From: an uncultured Clostridia bacterium
Lineage (GTDB): Bacteria; Bacillota; Clostridia; Christensenellales; Borkfalkiaceae
NCBI GenBank assembly: GCA_944327465.1
Contig: CALVHH010000001.1
Location: 97,330-161,329 of the forward strand
Direction: 5' to 3'
DNA length: 64,000 nt
Shown here: one piece after another, positions 37,277 to 50,100 of the stretch
Layout of the letters: each line of letters starts with the position of its first letter
How positions within the stretch are numbered: the stretch's first letter is position 1
Made by a program: the position numbers and the translations under genes
The notes under the pieces: model-generated
Databases searched by the model: none
What the model saw: only the letters and a program-made list of their open reading frames with translations
Told to the model about the DNA's origin: nothing

Positions 37277-40200
37277 ATGCAATCAAGAAAATCATTGTTA
37301 GCAAAGATTTTCGGGGTTCTCTGCGCACTTTGCTGTGTTGTAGCCCTCGCGTTCGGCGTAGCCGCTTGCGATAGCAATACCGACACCACAAAAAGCGTAG
37401 TCAACGTGAGCGTTGTGGATGGTCAGCTCGTCATAGACTATTCCGATGGCTCTAAGGAAGAAATCGACCTCGGGGATCTTAAGGGCGAACAGGGTCCCGC
37501 AGGTGATGACGGCGACAAGGGCGAACAGGGCGAACAGGGTCCTGCCGGCGTTGGCATCACTTCCGTAACTTGGGATGAAACCAAGCAGTGCCTCGTTATA
37601 ACTTATACCGACGGCAAGAAACAGGAAGTTAAGGTCGAAGGCCTTGGCTGCGAATGCCCCGAACCTTGCGAGCACGAAAACATCAGCTCGTGGATACTCA
37701 GCGATACATACGGTTATGACGCTGCAACCCAGAAGTGGACCGGCACCATCCTTGATGTCTGCGACGACTGCGGTTATGCATGGCTCATCACCGATGCAGA
37801 ACATCACCACACCATAAAGACCGGCGACAAGGCTGCAACCTGCACCGAAGACGGTATTAAGGGTGGCGAATACTGCGAAGTCTGCGGTTACGTAGTTCCC
37901 AATTCCGGCGAAGTTGTTCCCGCTCTCAACCATCCTGAAGCAAACAGGTCGACCCACATCGTCGAAGTTGAAGGCAAGGATCTCTGCACCGAAGGCGGTC
38001 TGTCCGTAACCATATGCGACCTCTGCGACGAAGTCATCGACTATACTCTTGCTCCCGCTCAGGGTCACAAGGTGTCCAAGTGGCTCACCGAAGGCACTCT
38101 CGGCTCAGGCGAAGCTCAGGTTGTTGCCGAGGCTCCCACCACTACCGAAAAGGGTCTTGCGATCGGCACCTGCCCCGTATGCGGCGACTATGTAACCAAG
38201 GAGCTTCCTGCATTCCTCAATGCAGACGGCACCGTTAACTCCGCATACACCCGCAAGGATGTATTACCCGCAGTTGACTGCGCTGATCAGGCTACCGTAG
38301 ACCTCACCATATCTCTCGATGTATGGGATGCCGAAGGCGTACAGGGCACTCAGGCGATTACCTTCACGAATATCGTACTTCCCGCTGTTGGTCATACCCT
38401 CGACGGCAAGAAGTTCCCTCCCGAAGGCGTTGGCACTGCTGCTAATCCTATAGTTCTCGATTCCGCAACTTACGACGAGGCTACCAAGACCTACGAGAGC
38501 GAATACGGCACCATAAAGGTCGATACCGAAACCGAACCTACCTGCGAAGATGACGGTATCGTTGCTTACTTCCTCTGCGACGTATGCGACCACCTCGTTC
38601 CCGTACAGGTAAGGGTTGAGCATATCGCTCCCGAAAACGAAGGCGTCAATGTGACCGAATATAATACGGTTGAAGAACTTGAAGCTTGGGTAGCTACCAT
38701 AGATAAGGAAACCCTTGCAGGTGTTGAAAAGGATCATCTCTACATCGTAGAACCTACCTGCACCGAAGACGGCAAGGAATACTTCATCTGCGACGAGTGC
38801 GGCGAACTCAGCTCCATAGTACTTGAAAAGACCGGTCATACCATAAAGTATAAGGCAGAAATCGATGATAAGAACACTCCCGCTACTGACGACGACGTTC
38901 TTACCCTCACTCCTTACTGCGCTACCTGCGGCGAGACCGATGAAACCAAGCTCAATGCAAAGAAGGTTTCTCTCACCGACTTCACTGTAACCACTGTAGA
39001 AGGCGATCCTTCCTGCCAGGAAGCAGGCACCATAACCTATAAGGGTACATACGAAGGCGTTGAATACACCGTTACCGAAACCATCCCCGTCAAAAACCAC
39101 ACGTTTGGCGGCAGGGAATGGGTACCCGGCAATAGCTACAACTACGACGAAGTTCGCGAGTATGTAAAGCTTGAAGTCAGCACCACCGATGAAGAAGACA
39201 TCAGCTGCGCCGACGGCAAGACTCTTGCAGGCGTCGTATGCGAAAAGTGCGACCAGCTCGTCCTTGTATATGTAGTTGTTCCTCACACCGCACCTAAGGT
39301 TGAAGAAAATACCGAAGTTACCTCCGAAACTCTTGATGAAGTCATAGCACTTCTCAAGGATACCGCAAACCAGGGTAAGGTTTACGAAAAGGCTGCAACC
39401 TGCACCGAAGCCGGTTACATAGCTTACTACTGCGCAGAATGCAAGAACGTTGTAGTAGTTGCCGGTTCTTCCAAGCTCGTTCCCGCAGAAGATGAACAGG
39501 TTGAAGGCGTTGTATACGAAGTTGATACTGCTTATGCAGCAACCGGACACAAGGCTGCCAACACCCTTGTTTACAACGATGAAAACGGCAATGGCGTCAA
39601 GGACGCTAATGAAGATTGGTATCTCGTTACCTACTGCGCTAACGAAGTGACCGATACTTCTGCCGCAGCTCTCCTCAAGCTTGCCGATGCAGACATGGGC
39701 AAGGATGAAAACAACAAGCTCAAGTACAACGAAGACGGCATCAACTACAAGGGCGTTGTCGAAGGCGTTGTAAAGGTTGAAGACGATCCTCGCAACCAGG
39801 AAGCTACCTGCACTACCGTAGGTAAGCAGGTTTACAAGTACACCAAGGATGGCGTCACCGCTGAAGTCATCGTAGACGTCCCTGCAATCTATCACTTCTA
39901 TCAGGATGGAGAAGGTCACAAGTATTCCTACATAGCTAATTCCGCTGTAGATGAAAACGGTGACCCCTACAGAGTTGGCGAGCCCGGTATCTACCAGGTA
40001 GTTGGCGAAGTTCCCGCTTGCAACGAAGATAAGGAACCCGCTACTGCAGGTATCATCTGCTCCGGCTGCGGACAGCTCGTCCTCATCAAGGTTATAGATG
40101 AACACACCCCCGTTGCTAACGCAACCGCAGATAGCGAAACTTACACCTCCTACGAAGCCCTCAAGGCAGCTGTAGATGCAGAAAACGCTAAGGCTCCCGA

Positions 40201-41224
40201 AGAAGCAGCTGCGCTTGACATCAACAAGGTTTATGTTGTTGCCACCGCTTGCGACGCTCCCGAATACGAAGCTCGTTACTGCACCGTATGCCATGATTGG
40301 TACGTAGACCTCACCAAGGAAGCAGGCAAGCACACCCTTGCAGTTGACTACACCACCCTTGCTAAGCAGGCTGATGGTTCCTACACTGTAACCGTTGAGT
40401 GCACCGCTTGCGACTACAAGCAGGAAAAAGTAGCAGTTGCTAAGCCTACCGAAGCTATGCTCGATAAGGAAGCAAGCGTTGCTGCAACCTGCCAGCTTGA
40501 AGGTATCAATGTATACAACGTACCCGTAAAGGTTGCCGGTCAGGACATCGTTGTTGTCATCAATGAAACGGCTGCAAAGGTTGACCATGCACTCGGCACT
40601 ATCGAGTACACCTGGGATACCGAAGAAACTATCGAAGGCGTTGATTACGTTATCACCTACAAGGGCAAACTTTGCTCGACCTGCAACAAGCTTATCGCTG
40701 AAGAAGTTGTCAGGGTTGAAGTTAAGGATCCCGATGAAGGCGAAGAAGGCGGCGATACTCCCGTAGTTCCCGCTGAGCCCGTAGAATACACCTACGATTT
40801 CTCAACTCTCACCGGTTCTGAAACAGCTACCGATCTTAACACTGTACTTGGTTCTACTAACGTAACTTTCGAAGGTACTCTTGGTACTTCCGATACGGAT
40901 CTCAGGCTGGCAAAAGGTCATCTTAAGTTTTCGGGTAATGCAGGCAAGGTTATCGTTACCCTTGACAACGTAAAAGCTGGTCAGACTGTTGAACTTACCA
41001 TAGTTGGTAAGAGTGGTTCTAAGGGTAACCCCGCTGAACTTGCAATCGCTGCAACCAACGCAACCACTACTGACACTGTTCCCGTTGTATATGCTGCAGG
41101 AGCTGACTACGTAACCACTACCGTTACCTATACCGCAACCGCAGATGGTTCTGTAGTTCTTACTTTCAACCGCAACACCGGCAAGACTGTTCAGCTCCAG
41201 AAGCTCACGGTAGTAGTTGAATAA
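37277..41224 (+). CDS. Giant surface lipoprotein with collagen-like segment and CxxC repeats
   Basis: 1315 residues. The signal peptide ends in a lipobox (FGVAAC, Cys31). Residues ~70-93 form eight collagen-like Gly-x-y triplets. About ten repeating modules follow, built on a TCTEDG-type start and a paired C-x2-C (CEVCGYVVP, CDVCDHLVPV, CDECGELSS, CEKCDQLVL, CAECKNVVV, CSGCGQLVL, CTVCHDWYV). The last ~140 residues (YTYDFSTLTGSETATDLN...) look like a beta-sandwich. No LPXTG is present. Its coding sequence looks lower in GC than neighbouring genes. Likely an envelope adhesin or metal- or glycan-binding protein; function unknown. RBS AAGGAG. Confidence 0.85.
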   Translation: MQSRKSLLAKIFGVLCALCCVVALAFGVAACDSNTDTTKSVVNVSVVDGQLVIDYSDGSKEEIDLGDLKGEQGPAGDDGDKGEQGEQGPAGVGITSVTWDETKQCLVITYTDGKKQEVKVEGLGCECPEPCEHENISSWILSDTYGYDAATQKWTGTILDVCDDCGYAWLITDAEHHHTIKTGDKAATCTEDGIKGGEYCEVCGYVVPNSGEVVPALNHPEANRSTHIVEVEGKDLCTEGGLSVTICDLCDEVIDYTLAPAQGHKVSKWLTEGTLGSGEAQVVAEAPTTTEKGLAIGTCPVCGDYVTKELPAFLNADGTVNSAYTRKDVLPAVDCADQATVDLTISLDVWDAEGVQGTQAITFTNIVLPAVGHTLDGKKFPPEGVGTAANPIVLDSATYDEATKTYESEYGTIKVDTETEPTCEDDGIVAYFLCDVCDHLVPVQVRVEHIAPENEGVNVTEYNTVEELEAWVATIDKETLAGVEKDHLYIVEPTCTEDGKEYFICDECGELSSIVLEKTGHTIKYKAEIDDKNTPATDDDVLTLTPYCATCGETDETKLNAKKVSLTDFTVTTVEGDPSCQEAGTITYKGTYEGVEYTVTETIPVKNHTFGGREWVPGNSYNYDEVREYVKLEVSTTDEEDISCADGKTLAGVVCEKCDQLVLVYVVVPHTAPKVEENTEVTSETLDEVIALLKDTANQGKVYEKAATCTEAGYIAYYCAECKNVVVVAGSSKLVPAEDEQVEGVVYEVDTAYAATGHKAANTLVYNDENGNGVKDANEDWYLVTYCANEVTDTSAAALLKLADADMGKDENNKLKYNEDGINYKGVVEGVVKVEDDPRNQEATCTTVGKQVYKYTKDGVTAEVIVDVPAIYHFYQDGEGHKYSYIANSAVDENGDPYRVGEPGIYQVVGEVPACNEDKEPATAGIICSGCGQLVLIKVIDEHTPVANATADSETYTSYEALKAAVDAENAKAPEEAAALDINKVYVVATACDAPEYEARYCTVCHDWYVDLTKEAGKHTLAVDYTTLAKQADGSYTVTVECTACDYKQEKVAVAKPTEAMLDKEASVAATCQLEGINVYNVPVKVAGQDIVVVINETAAKVDHALGTIEYTWDTEETIEGVDYVITYKGKLCSTCNKLIAEEVVRVEVKDPDEGEEGGDTPVVPAEPVEYTYDFSTLTGSETATDLNTVLGSTNVTFEGTLGTSDTDLRLAKGHLKFSGNAGKVIVTLDNVKAGQTVELTIVGKSGSKGNPAELAIAATNATTTDTVPVVYAAGADYVTTTVTYTATADGSVVLTFNRNTGKTVQLQKLTVVVE

Positions 41225-42999: not shown

Positions 43000-43187
43000 A
43001 TATGAAAGGCGGGGGATGCGCACTATTTTGTGCGCAATGCTTGGGCGACGATTTTCGGCGCACGGTATGTCCCGCGCACGAAAATTCAGACGGAGACAAT
43101 CCGTTCACGGTCGCCCGGCTCACCGCCGGGCGTTTTTTATGTGCGGCGTGCCGCGCAGACAATGTTGCACAGTTCAATGGCAGTATC
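43000..43187 (+). promoter_or_regulatory. atp operon leader with internal terminator
   Basis: A ~190-base leader with stems GCGCAC/GTGCGC (~43016-43035) and CGGA/TCCG. An intrinsic terminator (CGCCCGGC/GCCGGGCG, 43112-43132, then six T) lies 50 bases before atpB. An open frame from 43002 runs in frame through the terminator into atpB and encodes a cysteine-rich 62-residue segment. This could be an attenuator, a small RNA, or a translated extension. Confidence 0.55.
43112..43138 (+). terminator. Intrinsic terminator in the atp leader
   Basis: An 8-bp perfect GC stem with loop TCACC followed by six T residues. Confidence 0.85.
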
Positions 43188-44036
43188 ATGAAAACAGTAA
43201 ACAAATCATCAGGCAAAAAGTGGATAGTCGTCGGCGTGCTCATAGCAGTGCTGGCTGCGCTGCTCGTCGGCGCAATACTCATAGGCGCACCCCGCAAGGG
43301 CGAGCTTTCGGGCGAGCTTTCGGACGCCGTTCTGCACGAAGAAAAGCGCATAGATCTCTTTGGCATGAGCGTCAACCCCGCGCTCATCTCGGCGTTCGTC
43401 GTCACGGCGGTGCTGCTGCTGTTTGCGCTCTGCGTGCGCATCTTCGCCATACCCCGCTTTAAAGAAGTGCCCAACAGGTTCCAGCTCGTCATCGAGCAGC
43501 TCGTGTCCTTCTTCAACAACATGGCAAAGAGCGGCAGTCCCGAGCACAACTCCTTCCTCGGCGGCTACATCTTCGCCGCAGGCTGCTACATATTCGTCGG
43601 CACGGTGTTTGAATTGTTCGGCATACAGCTCGTCACAATTTCCGGTCATTCCGTCAGCATGCCCGCGCCCCTTTCGGATATCAACGCCGCAATAGCCATG
43701 GGCTTTATGTCCTATTTCGTCATACTCGGCGGCGGCATTGCAACCAACGGCGTCAGGGGGCTGGGCAGGGCGCTCAAAGAATTCTCGCTGCCCGTATCCA
43801 TGAGCTTCCGTCTGTTCGGCGCTCTGCTTTCGGGGCTGCTCGTAACCGAGCTCGTATACTACGCGCTCTTCCTTTCGGTGGGCGTGCCCGTAATAGTCGG
43901 CGTGCTCTTCACGCTGCTGCACGCAATAATACAGACGTACGTGCTGACCATGCTGACCGCCACATACTTCGGCGAAGTCACCGAGCCCCCCAAGCCCAAG
44001 GCAAAAAAAGTAAAAAAGTCCGCCGCGGCGGCATGA
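43188..44036 (+). CDS. atpB: ATP synthase F0 subunit a
   Basis: 282 residues from the ATG at 43188. Integral membrane protein forming the proton half-channels. The MSFRLFGALLSGLLVTELVYYAL helix carries the essential Arg. NAAIAMGFMSYFVILGGGI and a hydrophobic C-terminus (HAIIQTYVLTMLTATYFGEVTE) are typical. A Lys-rich tail follows. There is no good ribosome binding site before this ATG, so a start at 43002 with a 62-residue extension cannot be excluded. First structural gene of the operon; no atpI seen. Confidence 0.9.
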   Translation: MKTVNKSSGKKWIVVGVLIAVLAALLVGAILIGAPRKGELSGELSDAVLHEEKRIDLFGMSVNPALISAFVVTAVLLLFALCVRIFAIPRFKEVPNRFQLVIEQLVSFFNNMAKSGSPEHNSFLGGYIFAAGCYIFVGTVFELFGIQLVTISGHSVSMPAPLSDINAAIAMGFMSYFVILGGGIATNGVRGLGRALKEFSLPVSMSFRLFGALLSGLLVTELVYYALFLSVGVPVIVGVLFTLLHAIIQTYVLTMLTATYFGEVTEPPKPKAKKVKKSAAAA

Positions 44037-44076: not shown

Positions 44077-44505
44077 ATGAAACTGACAAAAAAGATAATG
44101 GCGGTATCGGCAGCCGTGCTTCTCGCGGCGCTGGCACTTATTGCAGTGGCTGCGCTTGCGCAGCCGGCGGCGGCAACGCCCGTAATGGCAGACAGCGCAA
44201 TTGAAAGCGTTGCCGTGCTCGACGAAGCTTCGGACGTTCAGCCCGAAGAGGAACAGCCCGCCGAAGAGTCCGCCGAAGAAGGCTCTTCCATGACTGCCAT
44301 CGGCGCAGCGGTCGCCATAGGACTCGCCGCAATAGGCGGCGCCATAGCAATGGGCATGGCTATATCCAAGGCAATGGAGGGCATCGCCCGCCAGCCCGAA
44401 GCCGACGGCAAGATACGCAGCTCGCTCATGCTCGGTCTCGTGTTCATAGAGACGGTAGTCATCTATGCGCTCATCGTGGCAATACTCATAATGTTCGTCG
44501 TTTAA
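44077..44505 (+). CDS. atpE: ATP synthase F0 subunit c with N-terminal extension
   Basis: 142 residues where most c subunits have 70-90. Residues 1-40 look like a signal peptide (MKLTKKIMAVSAAVLLAAL ... AQPAAATPVMADS). Residues 45-70 are an acidic Glu/Ala/Ser linker. The c-hairpin is residues ~72-142, with loop ARQPEADGKI and the ion-binding Glu125 in LVFIETVVIYALIV. The Na+-binding Gln of helix 1 is replaced by Met92, which does not favour a classic Na+ site. RBS CCGGAGGA. Confidence 0.92.
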   Translation: MKLTKKIMAVSAAVLLAALALIAVAALAQPAAATPVMADSAIESVAVLDEASDVQPEEEQPAEESAEEGSSMTAIGAAVAIGLAAIGGAIAMGMAISKAMEGIARQPEADGKIRSSLMLGLVFIETVVIYALIVAILIMFVV

Positions 44506-44551: not shown

Positions 44552-45238
44552 ATGCCGCTCAACATAGATTGGCAGCAGATACTGCTGCACGCATTTAACT
44601 TTATAATACTTGCCGCAGGCCTCACGTTTTTGCTGTTCAAGCCCGTAAAAAAGTTCATGGCTGCCCGCGAGGAGAGCTATAAAAAGGCTGCCGAAGAACA
44701 CAGGCAGAAGCTTGACGAGCTTGAATCGCTCGAAAAGGAGAGGCAGGCAAAGATAGCCGCCCTCGACGGCGAGCTCGCCGAGCGCGAGCAAAAGGCTGTG
44801 GCTGCCGCCGACGCGCACTCCAAGCGCATTGTAGCCGAAGCAAGGGACGAGGCTGAAAAGATAATTTCCGACGGCAAAAAGCGCGCCGCCGTCGAGCGCG
44901 AAAAGTACATAGCCGGCGCCGGCGACGAGATAACGTCGCTCATAGTCCGCTCGGCAGAAAAGCTGCTCGCCGCCGAAAGTAACGCCGCCACCGACGGCGC
45001 CCTGTACGACAGGTATCTTTCGCTTGCGCAGTCGCAGCAGCCGCTCCCGCCCGAGCGCCGCGACGAAATGTCCGCCGCCGCCCAAAACGGCGGCTCCGGT
45101 CAGGTGCTCCGCCGCTCGGATATAGCCGACATCCTCGGCGACGCCGCGGCGTCTGCAATAATGTCGCAGGGCGCCGAAAGCGACAACGTCGTGTACGACC
45201 GTTTCTTAAGCGAGGTCAACAAGAATGACGGCAACTGA
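44552..45238 (+). CDS. atpF: ATP synthase F0 subunit b with long C-terminal extension
   Basis: 228 residues. One membrane helix (~9-29, LLHAFNFIILAAGLTFLLFKPV) is followed by a long charged coiled coil (~35-145). Where typical b ends (~160), an extra ~80 residues follow. They contain two related motifs, ALYDRYLSLAQ and VVYDRFLSEVN, separated by a Gln/Gly-rich linker and RRSDIADILGDAAASA. Its last codons overlap the atpA start. RBS AGAGGTG. Confidence 0.9.
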   Translation: MPLNIDWQQILLHAFNFIILAAGLTFLLFKPVKKFMAAREESYKKAAEEHRQKLDELESLEKERQAKIAALDGELAEREQKAVAAADAHSKRIVAEARDEAEKIISDGKKRAAVEREKYIAGAGDEITSLIVRSAEKLLAAESNAATDGALYDRYLSLAQSQQPLPPERRDEMSAAAQNGGSGQVLRRSDIADILGDAAASAIMSQGAESDNVVYDRFLSEVNKNDGN

Positions 45239-47198
45239 TAAAACTGCAAAACTATACTGCGTCACCCCGCCCGACGAGCGCCAGATCGAAGGCTTTAAAG
45301 ACTTTCTCGAGCGCACCTTCGGCGTGCGCCCGCAGCTCGAGATAGTTCGCGATAACTCGCTGATAGGCGGCTTCCGCCTCGAATACGGCGACAATATATA
45401 CGACTGGTCGGCAAAGGGACGCATCGAAAAGTTCATACCCGCTTCCGCCGCTCCGTCGGCACGGCTGTACTGCGTCACCCCGCCCGATGAGGTCCGCTTA
45501 AAGGGCTTTGCCGACTTTGTAAAGCGCACTTACGGCGACGGCGTAAAGCTGGAAGTAATACGCGACCCCTCGCTGATAGGCGGCTTCCGCCTCGAATACG
45601 GCGACAACGTGTACGACTGGTCGGCAAAGAGCAGGATAGAGCGCTTCCGCAGCGACATAAAGAACTCTTCCGCCAAGGGCGTGACCTCGCTTTTGAGGGA
45701 GTCGATCGACAGCTTAAAGGACACCATCGAAGGCTGGAGCATGGACGCCGCCGTCCGCGAGACGGGCAAGGTGGTCACCGTCGGCGACGGCATAGCCCGC
45801 GTCAGCGGACTCGACAGGGCAGAGTACGGCGAGATCCTGCAGTTTGAATGCGGAATAAAGGGCATGGTGCTCGAGCTCGCTCCCGACGGCGCAGGCTGCA
45901 TAATATTCGGCAACGACAGCGAGATAGAGTCGGGCTCGTCGGTCTTCCGCACCGGCAAGACGGCGGGCGTGCCCGTCGGCGAAGGCATGATAGGCAGGGT
46001 GGTGGACGCGCTCGGTTCGCCCATAGACGGCGACGGCGCCATAACTGCCGCCGCGTATATGCCCATAGAAGCGCCCGCGCCCGGCATAATCGACCGTCAG
46101 CCCGTAAACACGCCGCTGCGCACGGGCATACTTACAATCGACAGCATGTTCCCCATCGGCCGCGGTCAGCGCGAACTTATAATAGGCGACCGCCAGACGG
46201 GCAAGACCGCCGTCGCCACCGATACCATACTCAACCAGAAGGGACAGGGCGTAATCTGCATATACGTAGCCATCGGTCAGAAGGCGAGCTCGGTAGCCCA
46301 CCTTGTGGAAGGGCTCAAAAAGCGGGGGGCGATGGAGTACACCATAGTCGTCTCCTCAACGGCGGGCGACCCCGCTTCGCTGCAGTATATAGCCCCCTAC
46401 GCCGGCTGCGCCATAGCCGAATACTTCATGAACTCGGGCAGGGACGTGCTCATCGTATACGACGACCTTTCAAAGCACGCCGTGGCATACAGGGCGCTTT
46501 CGCTCCTTCTGGGTCGTTCGCCCGGGCGCGAAGCCTATCCCGGCGACGTCTTCTATCTGCATTCAAGACTGCTCGAGCGCGCCGCGCATCTCTCAGATGA
46601 GCGGGGAGGCGGCTCCATGACCGCCCTGCCCATAGTCGAAACTCAGGCGGGCGACATTTCGGCATATATCCCCACAAACATAATCTCCATAACCGACGGT
46701 CAGATATTCCTTTCGGGCGACTTGTTCTATTCGGGGCAGCGCCCCGCCGTAAACGTCGGCATATCCGTCTCGCGTGTGGGCGGCGACGCCCAGACCAAGG
46801 CGATGAAGACCGCCGCGGGCACCATAAGGCTCAACCTTGCGCAGTACAGGGAGATGGAAGTGTTCATGCAGTTCTCTTCCGACCTCGACGAGACGACAAA
46901 GAGGACGCTCGACTACGGCAGGAGCTTAATGAACCTTTTGCGCCAGCCGCAGTACAGCCCCCTGCCCGAATACAGGCAGGTAATACTGCTTGTATCCGCC
47001 ATGGGGCATGCCTTCTCGGCGATATCCCCCGACGACATACCCTCGATAAAGTTAAAGCTTTTGGAACATTTCGATGACGCCCGTCCCGACCTCGTTGAAG
47101 AGGTCAAAAAGGGCGCGGCGCTCACCCCCGAAGTCAGGGCGGCGATAGTCGGCGAAACCAAGACCTATCTCGCCTCCATTGCCTCGCAGCAGGCATGA
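45225..47198 (+). CDS. atpA: ATP synthase F1 subunit alpha with two N-terminal delta-C-like modules
   Basis: 657 residues; usual alpha is ~505. The alpha core begins ~150 (LLRESIDSLKDTIEGW ... VVTVGDGIARVSGL). Walker A GDRQTGKT is at 321-328. The first ~145 residues carry two tandem copies (9-70 and 80-141) of LYCVTPPDE ... SLIGGFRLEYGDNxYDWSAKxRIExF. This resembles the delta-subunit C-terminal domain (E. coli SVMAGVIIRAGDMVIDGS-type pattern). No separate atpH exists. The repeats are nearly identical in DNA for the second half. The start overlaps atpF by 14 bases. Confidence 0.93.
   Translation: MTATDKTAKLYCVTPPDERQIEGFKDFLERTFGVRPQLEIVRDNSLIGGFRLEYGDNIYDWSAKGRIEKFIPASAAPSARLYCVTPPDEVRLKGFADFVKRTYGDGVKLEVIRDPSLIGGFRLEYGDNVYDWSAKSRIERFRSDIKNSSAKGVTSLLRESIDSLKDTIEGWSMDAAVRETGKVVTVGDGIARVSGLDRAEYGEILQFECGIKGMVLELAPDGAGCIIFGNDSEIESGSSVFRTGKTAGVPVGEGMIGRVVDALGSPIDGDGAITAAAYMPIEAPAPGIIDRQPVNTPLRTGILTIDSMFPIGRGQRELIIGDRQTGKTAVATDTILNQKGQGVICIYVAIGQKASSVAHLVEGLKKRGAMEYTIVVSSTAGDPASLQYIAPYAGCAIAEYFMNSGRDVLIVYDDLSKHAVAYRALSLLLGRSPGREAYPGDVFYLHSRLLERAAHLSDERGGGSMTALPIVETQAGDISAYIPTNIISITDGQIFLSGDLFYSGQRPAVNVGISVSRVGGDAQTKAMKTAAGTIRLNLAQYREMEVFMQFSSDLDETTKRTLDYGRSLMNLLRQPQYSPLPEYRQVILLVSAMGHAFSAISPDDIPSIKLKLLEHFDDARPDLVEEVKKGAALTPEVRAAIVGETKTYLASIASQQA
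45249..45647 (+). repeat. Tandem delta-C-like coding repeats in atpA
   Basis: Two units with a 213-bp period. The segments coding SLIGGFRLEYGD and YDWSAK are almost identical in DNA (near 45357-45417 and 45570-45630), implying recent duplication or gene conversion. Confidence 0.9.
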
Positions 47199-47289
47199 CC
47201 CGGAAAAGGCAGGGGTGCCCTTAAGAGATAAGGCAGGGTTATCTGAAAACAGTATTTCTAATGATCCGACCGCAATGCGCACGCAGTGC

Positions 47290-47362
47290 GCTCCGTCGAC
47301 CGAGCAATATAGTTAGATTTCTCCATGCGTTCGCTTCGCTCGCTTAGCCGAAAGGACAGTGG
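47290..47362. repeat. Dispersed repeat inside the atp operon
   Basis: GTTAGATTTCTCCATGCG then CTTAGCCGAAAGGACAG, the inverse-orientation repeat with a shortened centre. It lies in the 184-bp gap between atpA and atpG. Confidence 0.75.
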
Positions 47363-47382
47363 TGATATAGAGCAAATAAAAG

Positions 47383-49676
<2,294 letters not shown>

Positions 49677-49680
49677 ACAG

Positions 49681-50100
49681 ATGAATACATTCAAGCTGCA
49701 CCTTCTGGGCGCCGGCAGGCTCTTTTACGAGGGCGACTGTTTAAGCGTGTCCGTGCCCGCGGTAGACGGGCAGTACGGCGTGCTGGCGCACCATTCCAAC
49801 CTCATAACCGCAATCGTCCCCGGCGAACTGACCTTCACCACCCCGGGCGAGCATCCCTATTCCGCCACCGTTGCGGTGGCGGGCGGAATAATGCGTGTGG
49901 AGGACAACGACGTCCTCATACTTGTAGACTACGTTCTCCGCCCCGAGGAGATAGATGCCGACCGCGCCCGCGAGGAGGCTGCCGCAGCAAAGGAGGCGCT
50001 GCTCCAGCGCCGCAGCATACAGGCATACCGCTCGGCACAGGCGCAGCTCGCCCGCGCCGTCACCAAACTCAAAGTCCGCCGCAAGGGCAGCGGCAAATAG
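49681..50100 (+). CDS. atpC: ATP synthase F1 subunit epsilon
   Basis: 139 residues. The N-terminal beta-sandwich reads FKLHLLGAGRLFYEGDCLSVSVPAVDGQYGVLAHHSNLITAIVPGEL. The helical C-terminal hairpin (EEIDADRAREEAAAAKEALLQRRS) is the regulatory part. Last gene of the operon, four bases after atpD. Confidence 0.95.
   Translation: MNTFKLHLLGAGRLFYEGDCLSVSVPAVDGQYGVLAHHSNLITAIVPGELTFTTPGEHPYSATVAVAGGIMRVEDNDVLILVDYVLRPEEIDADRAREEAAAAKEALLQRRSIQAYRSAQAQLARAVTKLKVRRKGSGK

Follow-up and report, generated by a model that had tools for sequence, protein, structure and literature searches.

How many stalks can hold an ATP synthase together when its delta subunit has been cut down to the part that binds the stalk, joined to alpha and then doubled? 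The question is raised by the atp operon of an uncultured bacterium, probably of the Candidatus Coproplasma kind (Clostridia), in a 64,000-nt stretch of DNA (contig CALVHH010000001.1, positions 97,330 to 161,329; hereafter the window). Its atpA gene (45225..47198, on the + strand like all genes of the operon; 657 aa) encodes an alpha subunit preceded by two tandem copies of the C-terminal domain of delta (delta-C), and its atpF gene a b subunit that ends in two copies of its delta-docking tail. The accepted picture gives ATP synthase a single stator stalk and lets the c-ring fix its H+/ATP ratio, a rule that a designed enzyme broke in 2025. The lineage of the window, with the fusion that had been predicted and matching duplications on both sides of the joint that are conserved across its genus, offers a natural test case and a source of parts. 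Whether it encodes a natural multi-stalk ATP synthase, each stalk being held by two delta-C/b-tail joints, is in our judgement an evenly balanced matter.

The first 147 residues of alpha match the OSCP family PF00213 (E 1e-20; 75 bits, where the cut-off is 22.3) in two stretches, both of which cover the C-terminal part of the model alone, from position 103 or later. A profile of our own places the copies at residues 8-70 (module 1, 45246..45434) and 79-144 (module 2, 45459..45656), that is, 63-66 aa each with a period of 71 residues and an 8-residue linker between them (45435..45458). The repeat is also present in the DNA, where two 176-nt segments of atpA, 213 nt apart, are 77% identical. The best PDB sequence matches of the modules, used in assigning module 2, are delta of Bacillus PS3 (6n2y, E 1.5e-6, delta residues 108-175) and a delta-alpha fusion chain (9jc1). 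An AlphaFold2 (AF2) model of alpha residues 1-185 (24 rows) has two beta-alpha-beta-beta-beta units, and a Foldseek search with this model returned ATP synthase chains at all of ranks 1-45, rank 46 being something else. The modules are therefore two tandem copies of the delta/OSCP C-terminal domain, as a sequence-only reading of the window had proposed for what it took to be 62-residue repeats. They lie within the alpha open reading frame (ORF), so its further claim, that delta-C was moved covalently onto alpha, holds as well.

That reading had also concluded that the N-terminal bundle of delta was lost, with which everything found here agrees. ORFs and Pfam matches give an operon a-c-b-alpha-gamma-beta-epsilon without atpH, and neither a delta N-terminal helical bundle nor any further PF00213 match was found elsewhere in the genome (1.44 Mb, 92.3% complete) at E values up to 10. 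Two hiding places were considered and rejected: a delta gene elsewhere in the genome, in view of the same search, and an N-domain carried by b, which has no PF00213 match and whose extra sequence is a copy of its own tail.

In ordinary enzymes the N-domain of delta occupies the three-fold axis, where it allows a single stalk. With this domain gone, each of the three alpha subunits offers a stalk anchor of its own, and the enzyme may carry more than one b2/a stalk, up to three. The analogy is with a single delta-alpha fusion lacking the delta N-domain, engineered in Bacillus PS3 FoF1 (PMC12229609, Nat Commun 2025), which formed as many as three peripheral stalks, an a subunit accompanying each, and had an H+/ATP ratio of 5.8 against 3.0. 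According to its authors, the N-domain of delta limits stalk number to one and natural multi-stalk enzymes are likely. Six modules crowded around one stalk, the stoichiometry that had troubled the sequence-only reading, is thus not the natural expectation, since up to three stalks form without the N-domain (PMC12229609). One ordinary stalk would nevertheless do if the modules of one alpha bound one b2 and those of the other two were spare, the fusion being a covalent replacement of delta and the duplications a gain in avidity. We find this rather doubtful: classical ATP synthases do have one stalk, and engineered PS3 particles with 0, 1, 2 and 3 stalks made up 15, 51, 26 and 8%, but removal of the N-domain and fusion did allow several stalks in that enzyme (PMC12229609), and the search of the genome of the window turned up no PF00213 N-domain.

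The fusion as such is not the structural novelty for which it had been taken. Among 248 sampled genomes of the order, 125 have atpA and 125 a PF00213 match, by eye the same genomes. Operon stretches were taken from the 124 other matching genomes, one of which (G059) has two operons, and from five more members of the genus (130 stretches, 131 with the window). They comprise 19 operons with a full delta, 33 with a separate minimal delta-C (among them G145, which was too short for the tally and is counted as such), one with a separate two-module protein (G161), 72 with a single fusion and 6 with a double fusion, all six in the genus of the window. Related genomes thus do share the fusion, as a single module commonly and as a double one in this genus, and the single form had already been engineered and named in nature, in Acidaminococcus fermentans and UniProt entries G4Q3K6 and A0A1I2C5T3 (PMC12229609). 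Operons without the delta N-domain are common in the order, not a rarity (111 of the 131 examined, G227 left out), and the first module begins within the first 33 alpha residues in 77 of 78 fusions, 173 residues without a PF00213 match preceding it in G227. Outside the 131 operons there are weak single PF00213 matches in G059, G096 and G150 (E 0.006-0.009). Among the matches listed for the class, of which 47 weaker-scoring genomes were inspected, fused delta-C also turns up in further families; another genome of the genus of G151 (G664) had no PF00213 match.

Several variants deserve mention in their own right. Full-length delta, N-domain included, is fused to alpha in L236 (5752-7779), L192 and L195 (1402-3402), and a 679-aa frame of this type occurs in six genomes of family f48, two of which were read; three N-domains per F1 would then compete for one place on the axis. 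G161 (L073) encodes a separate 131-aa delta protein consisting of two delta-C modules, the first without its C-terminal end. G059 (L058, L160) encodes both a classical ATP synthase with full delta and a second one whose delta-C is fused to alpha, so that nature may offer here a comparison of the two types within one genome.

Within the genus, PF00213 scores above its cut-off in 14 of 46 genomes, 13 of which have two modules in one alpha frame and one of which (G015) has one. A scan of named genomes yielded 27 loci, 23 of which (L213-L235, some being the same contigs as in the 46-genome sample) group with the window as Coproplasma-like; here two modules are present in 20 and one in three (L233-L235). 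An assembly artefact was rejected because the architecture recurs in 13 of the 46 genomes and 20 of the 23 loci. An A/V-type catalytic subunit occurs in 23 of the 46 genomes, none of them among the 14, and nine have neither; delta-module alpha and A/V-type ATPase are mutually exclusive in this sample.

What the sequence-only reading missed, and what bears directly on the role that the second module may have, is the duplication of the delta-docking tail of b. Binding of the C-terminal end of b to the C-terminal end of delta/OSCP is established (review PMC6131620). In the window and all 23 Coproplasma-like loci, b is at least 228 aa long and ends in two copies of one tail. The window protein (44552..45238, 228 aa, PF00430) has tail 1 at residues ~144-161 (44981..45034, motif ALYDRYL) and tail 2 at residues ~188-223 (45113..45220, motif VVYDRFL). 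A profile was built on the C-terminal 60 residues of 119 b proteins with one tail; against it, tail 2 of 26 doubled b proteins (24 of the genus plus G151 and G164) scores 10.6-41.8 bits against at most 8.0 for 1040 shuffles, a margin flattered by the choice of these proteins by motif. This set did not include G133, one of three b proteins out of 148 dropped by length. The tail alignments of 7 of the 26 extend well past the motif, and direct alignment of tail 1 with tail 2 beats all 500 shuffles in six of seven b proteins (in L233, 2.4% of shuffles were as good). All 24 aligned b sequences carry the motifs Y-D-x-Y-L and Y-D-x-F-L unchanged. In an AF2 model of b, each tail forms a helix-break-helix, and a loose segment of some 26 residues lies between the two. 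Scanning b for tails, which gave a second domain in the window protein at 188-224 (11.8 bits), revealed one further clear doubling among the 131 operons, that of G133, whose tail 2 scores 48 bits. In the same scan, tail 2 of G001 fell under the 8-bit mark (it has 10.6 bits in the single-tail profile test), and a weak, directly adjoining second match in G269 (9.3 bits) was not counted. The G133 case (L153, b of 223 aa) is an independent and very clear doubling in a distant lineage, whose alpha has one fused module.

Doubled tails and fused modules keep company. Of the 78 operons with fused delta-C, 10 have a doubled b tail, as against none of the other 53 (the rows are related, hence counts without a statistical test), and doubled modules on alpha were seen only with doubled b, in 6 of 6 cases in the operon survey and in 20 of 20 Coproplasma-like loci. 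As we picture it, all that is left of delta is the C-terminal domain that binds b, which became attached to the alpha N-terminus and was duplicated, and most likely the second module and the second b tail would form a second joint beside the first on the same stalk. The same stalk is favoured because the inter-module linkers in the clade of the window (8-11 residues, 8 in the window) would keep module 1 too close to reach a neighbouring one. Such a double joint would grip the stalk more tightly, stalk loss being the weak point of the engineered single fusion, whose authors see a need for versions with stably F1-bound stalks (PMC12229609). Another arrangement would have module 1 of each alpha bind the second tail of the neighbouring stalk, so that the stalks are ringed over F1 by a cross-bridging cap. 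The loose stretch between the b tails in the model would permit this, as might the inter-module linkers of 17-25 residues in the other Coproplasma clade, but the short linkers in the clade of the window leave little reach and the idea has no direct support, which makes it very improbable in our eyes.

Are the second copies doing anything? Compared in pairs (210 in all, 199 where the inter-module linker is concerned), the alphas of 21 double-module loci have a ratio of non-synonymous to synonymous differences (pN/pS; uncorrected and, with synonymous sites near saturation, rough) of 0.39 in module 1, 0.35 in module 2, 0.52 in the following helix, 0.26 in the core and 0.92 in that linker. The corresponding values in b are 0.43 for the stalk, 0.40 for tail 1, 0.43 for tail 2 and 0.83 for the inter-tail linker. 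Both modules and both tails are under purifying selection and far more conserved than their linkers. It is hence most improbable that the duplications are neutral leftovers without function: single-module lineages within the genus (L233; G015 and L234) do indicate that the second module is dispensable over evolution, but pN/pS far under that of the linkers, the invariant motif residues and the renewed doubling of the tails in the distant fused lineage G133 all speak for use.

The order of events can be read, in part, from trees. When the alpha-core tree is given a full-delta operon as its root, all sampled operons without full delta form a clade (support 0.929, or 0.994 without G269) that leaves the sampled full-delta operons outside. 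Inside this clade separate forms are interspersed with fused ones, and it also holds two full-delta Lachnospiraceae (L237, L239) and the full delta-alpha fusion L236, all three from the scan of named genomes. With this rooting, loss of the N-domain preceded fusion, and there were several events of fusion or fission. A careful alpha tree recovers the genus as one clade (100/100) of two halves, with the single-module L233 at the base of the half that includes the window (90/84) and the single-module G015 and L234 nested inside the other. The module tree joins both modules of the clade of the window and leaves L233 outside (95/87, 98/95; few columns, many open forks), which suggests separate module duplications in the two clades, on an already doubled b. 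However, exact DNA tracts of up to 48 nt are common to both module copies within one genome, so that one duplication followed by gene conversion could yield the same tree. For the tails, a single origin of the doubling in Coproplasma plus G151/G164 was not rejected (approximately unbiased test, p-AU 0.287; G133 outside the tree).

A single stalk might also be reached if the cell made two kinds of alpha, an internal start or proteolysis yielding plain alpha next to some module-bearing copies. Module 2 is followed by the N-terminal helix region of alpha (residues ~150-172, 45672..45740, from the alignment and a low-confidence AF2 helix at 153-170) and the core with its beta-barrel, nucleotide-binding and C-terminal domains (45741..47195; PF02874, PF00006, PF00306). 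None of the 24 aligned sequences lacks the Met found at residue 173, shortly after W171, and in the window GAAGG precedes this Met at 7 nt. An internal start there is possible in the window, but was rejected for the genus, as the purine-rich upstream sequence is unconserved in the genus loci compared (absent, for example, from L213, L225 and L230; 3 of 24 rows showed another stretch). Such a start would moreover remove the alpha N-terminal helix, and there is one atpA match in the genome, all of which makes a mixed alpha very improbable.

With more stalks, the number of ions moved for each ATP would rise, and a weak driving force could then suffice to make ATP. In the genome of the window, a gene cluster matches Rnf C, D, E, A and B in this order (E < 1e-50; C and E exceed a curated cut-off, which D, A and B narrowly miss); the D and E genes are separated by an ORF that has no match. 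This is a plausible low-yield ion pump to partner such an enzyme and fits a low-energy anaerobe. No A/V-type catalytic subunit was found in this genome, the F-type enzyme being the only rotary ATPase found there. The most far-reaching form of the hypothesis, a triple-stalk enzyme (three b2, three a), each stalk locked by two joints, whose high and constant ion cost per ATP would be an adaptation to the very small ion-motive force supplied by Rnf, we put forward tentatively, as possible but with the balance somewhat against it. If true, it would be evolution's own stabilised form of the engineered multi-stalk enzyme.

Several points weigh against a doubly jointed multi-stalk enzyme. Doubled b goes with a single module in 3 of the 23 Coproplasma-like loci, in G151 and G164 and in the distant G133, and G161 has its two modules in a separate small protein next to an ordinary b; a strict one-to-one number of modules and tails was rejected on these grounds, and doubled b may serve a single fusion too. 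The AF2 model of b has low confidence at tail 2 (predicted local distance difference test, pLDDT, 47-59) and that of the alpha N-terminus is weak (modules mostly 73-86 pLDDT, overall mean 67, predicted template modelling score 0.36). The genomes of the survey are mostly metagenome-assembled, and a genome 92.3% complete leaves room for a delta N-domain elsewhere. The stalk counts cited come from the engineered PS3 enzyme; for the enzyme of the window, we infer the number of stalks, the pairing of modules with tails and the H+/ATP ratio.

The rest of the operon is that of an F-type enzyme, with a, c, b, gamma and epsilon above Pfam cut-offs and beta named from its ORF. It runs from atpB (a; 43002..44036, start codon uncertain, PF00119) and atpE (c; 44077..44505, PF00137 at residues 75-138) through atpF and atpA, which overlap by 14 nt (the atpA start lies within the end of the b ORF), to atpG (gamma; 47383..48270, PF00231), atpD (beta; 48267..49676, named from sequence, with weaker similarity to alpha frames) and atpC (epsilon, both domains; 49681..50100, PF02823 and PF00401). 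Alpha belongs to the equivalog family TIGR00962 (716 bits against a cut-off of 484, match from residue 159 onward). Some 70 additional residues precede the hairpin of subunit c, comprising a hydrophobic segment that resembles a signal sequence and an acidic linker; c is 125-161 aa long in L213-L235, 72-94 aa in 8 of 9 loci outside the genus and 139 aa in the ninth, G029. The Na+-binding residue set of c includes a Q; this residue seems to be M in the window, which would suggest H+. The spacer between atpA and atpG (47199-47382) contains pieces of a dispersed repeat, parts of which match 29 further places in the genome (E <= 1e-5), and upstream of the operon lies a 1315-aa ORF (37277-41224), secreted by its look and with many CxxC pairs.

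How does this enzyme compare with known systems? In the literature searched, which excluded preprints and most subscription papers, neither the doubling of the module on alpha nor that of the b tail was found described, and delta-alpha fusion was treated by PMC12229609 alone, as far as the available text goes. N-ATPase resembles the window in having no delta gene and a longer b (PMC5706428), but its beta and epsilon genes precede a-c-b-alpha-gamma (PMC5709465). The N-ATPase b model matches the modules weakly (E 8.5e-4), and the alpha of the window scores below the cut-off of the N-ATPase alpha model (TIGR03324, alternate-F1F0; 615.7 against 750.5 bits). The stand-alone minimal delta-C proteins (33 of 131 operons) are likewise a delta cut to its C-terminal domain and are encoded between b and alpha, but unfused; G161 is one further operon, with two modules in one protein. 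The mycobacterial b-delta fusion keeps the delta N-domain. It too joins delta covalently to a neighbouring subunit (PMC5709465; PDB names), but to b and not alpha, and the b of the window has no PF00213 match and reaches 18.9 bits with the b-delta model PRK13428, against a cut-off of 328. The natural single fusions (72 of 131 operons) carry, like the window, delta-C on alpha without the N-domain (in G227, with its 173 residues ahead of the module), but one module, and doubled b occurs among them only in G015, G151, G164 and G133. Closest of all in outline is the engineered PS3 fusion (PMC12229609; PDB 9jc1, 'Engineering of ATP synthase'), with delta-C ahead of alpha, no N-domain and b2 bound via delta-C. 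It has one module where the window has two, and measured values for stalk number and H+/ATP where the window has a gene sequence. Its authors have thus already published the single fusion and its likely consequence (PMC12229609); what is new is the doubling of the stalk anchors on a delta-alpha fusion, which is real and conserved.

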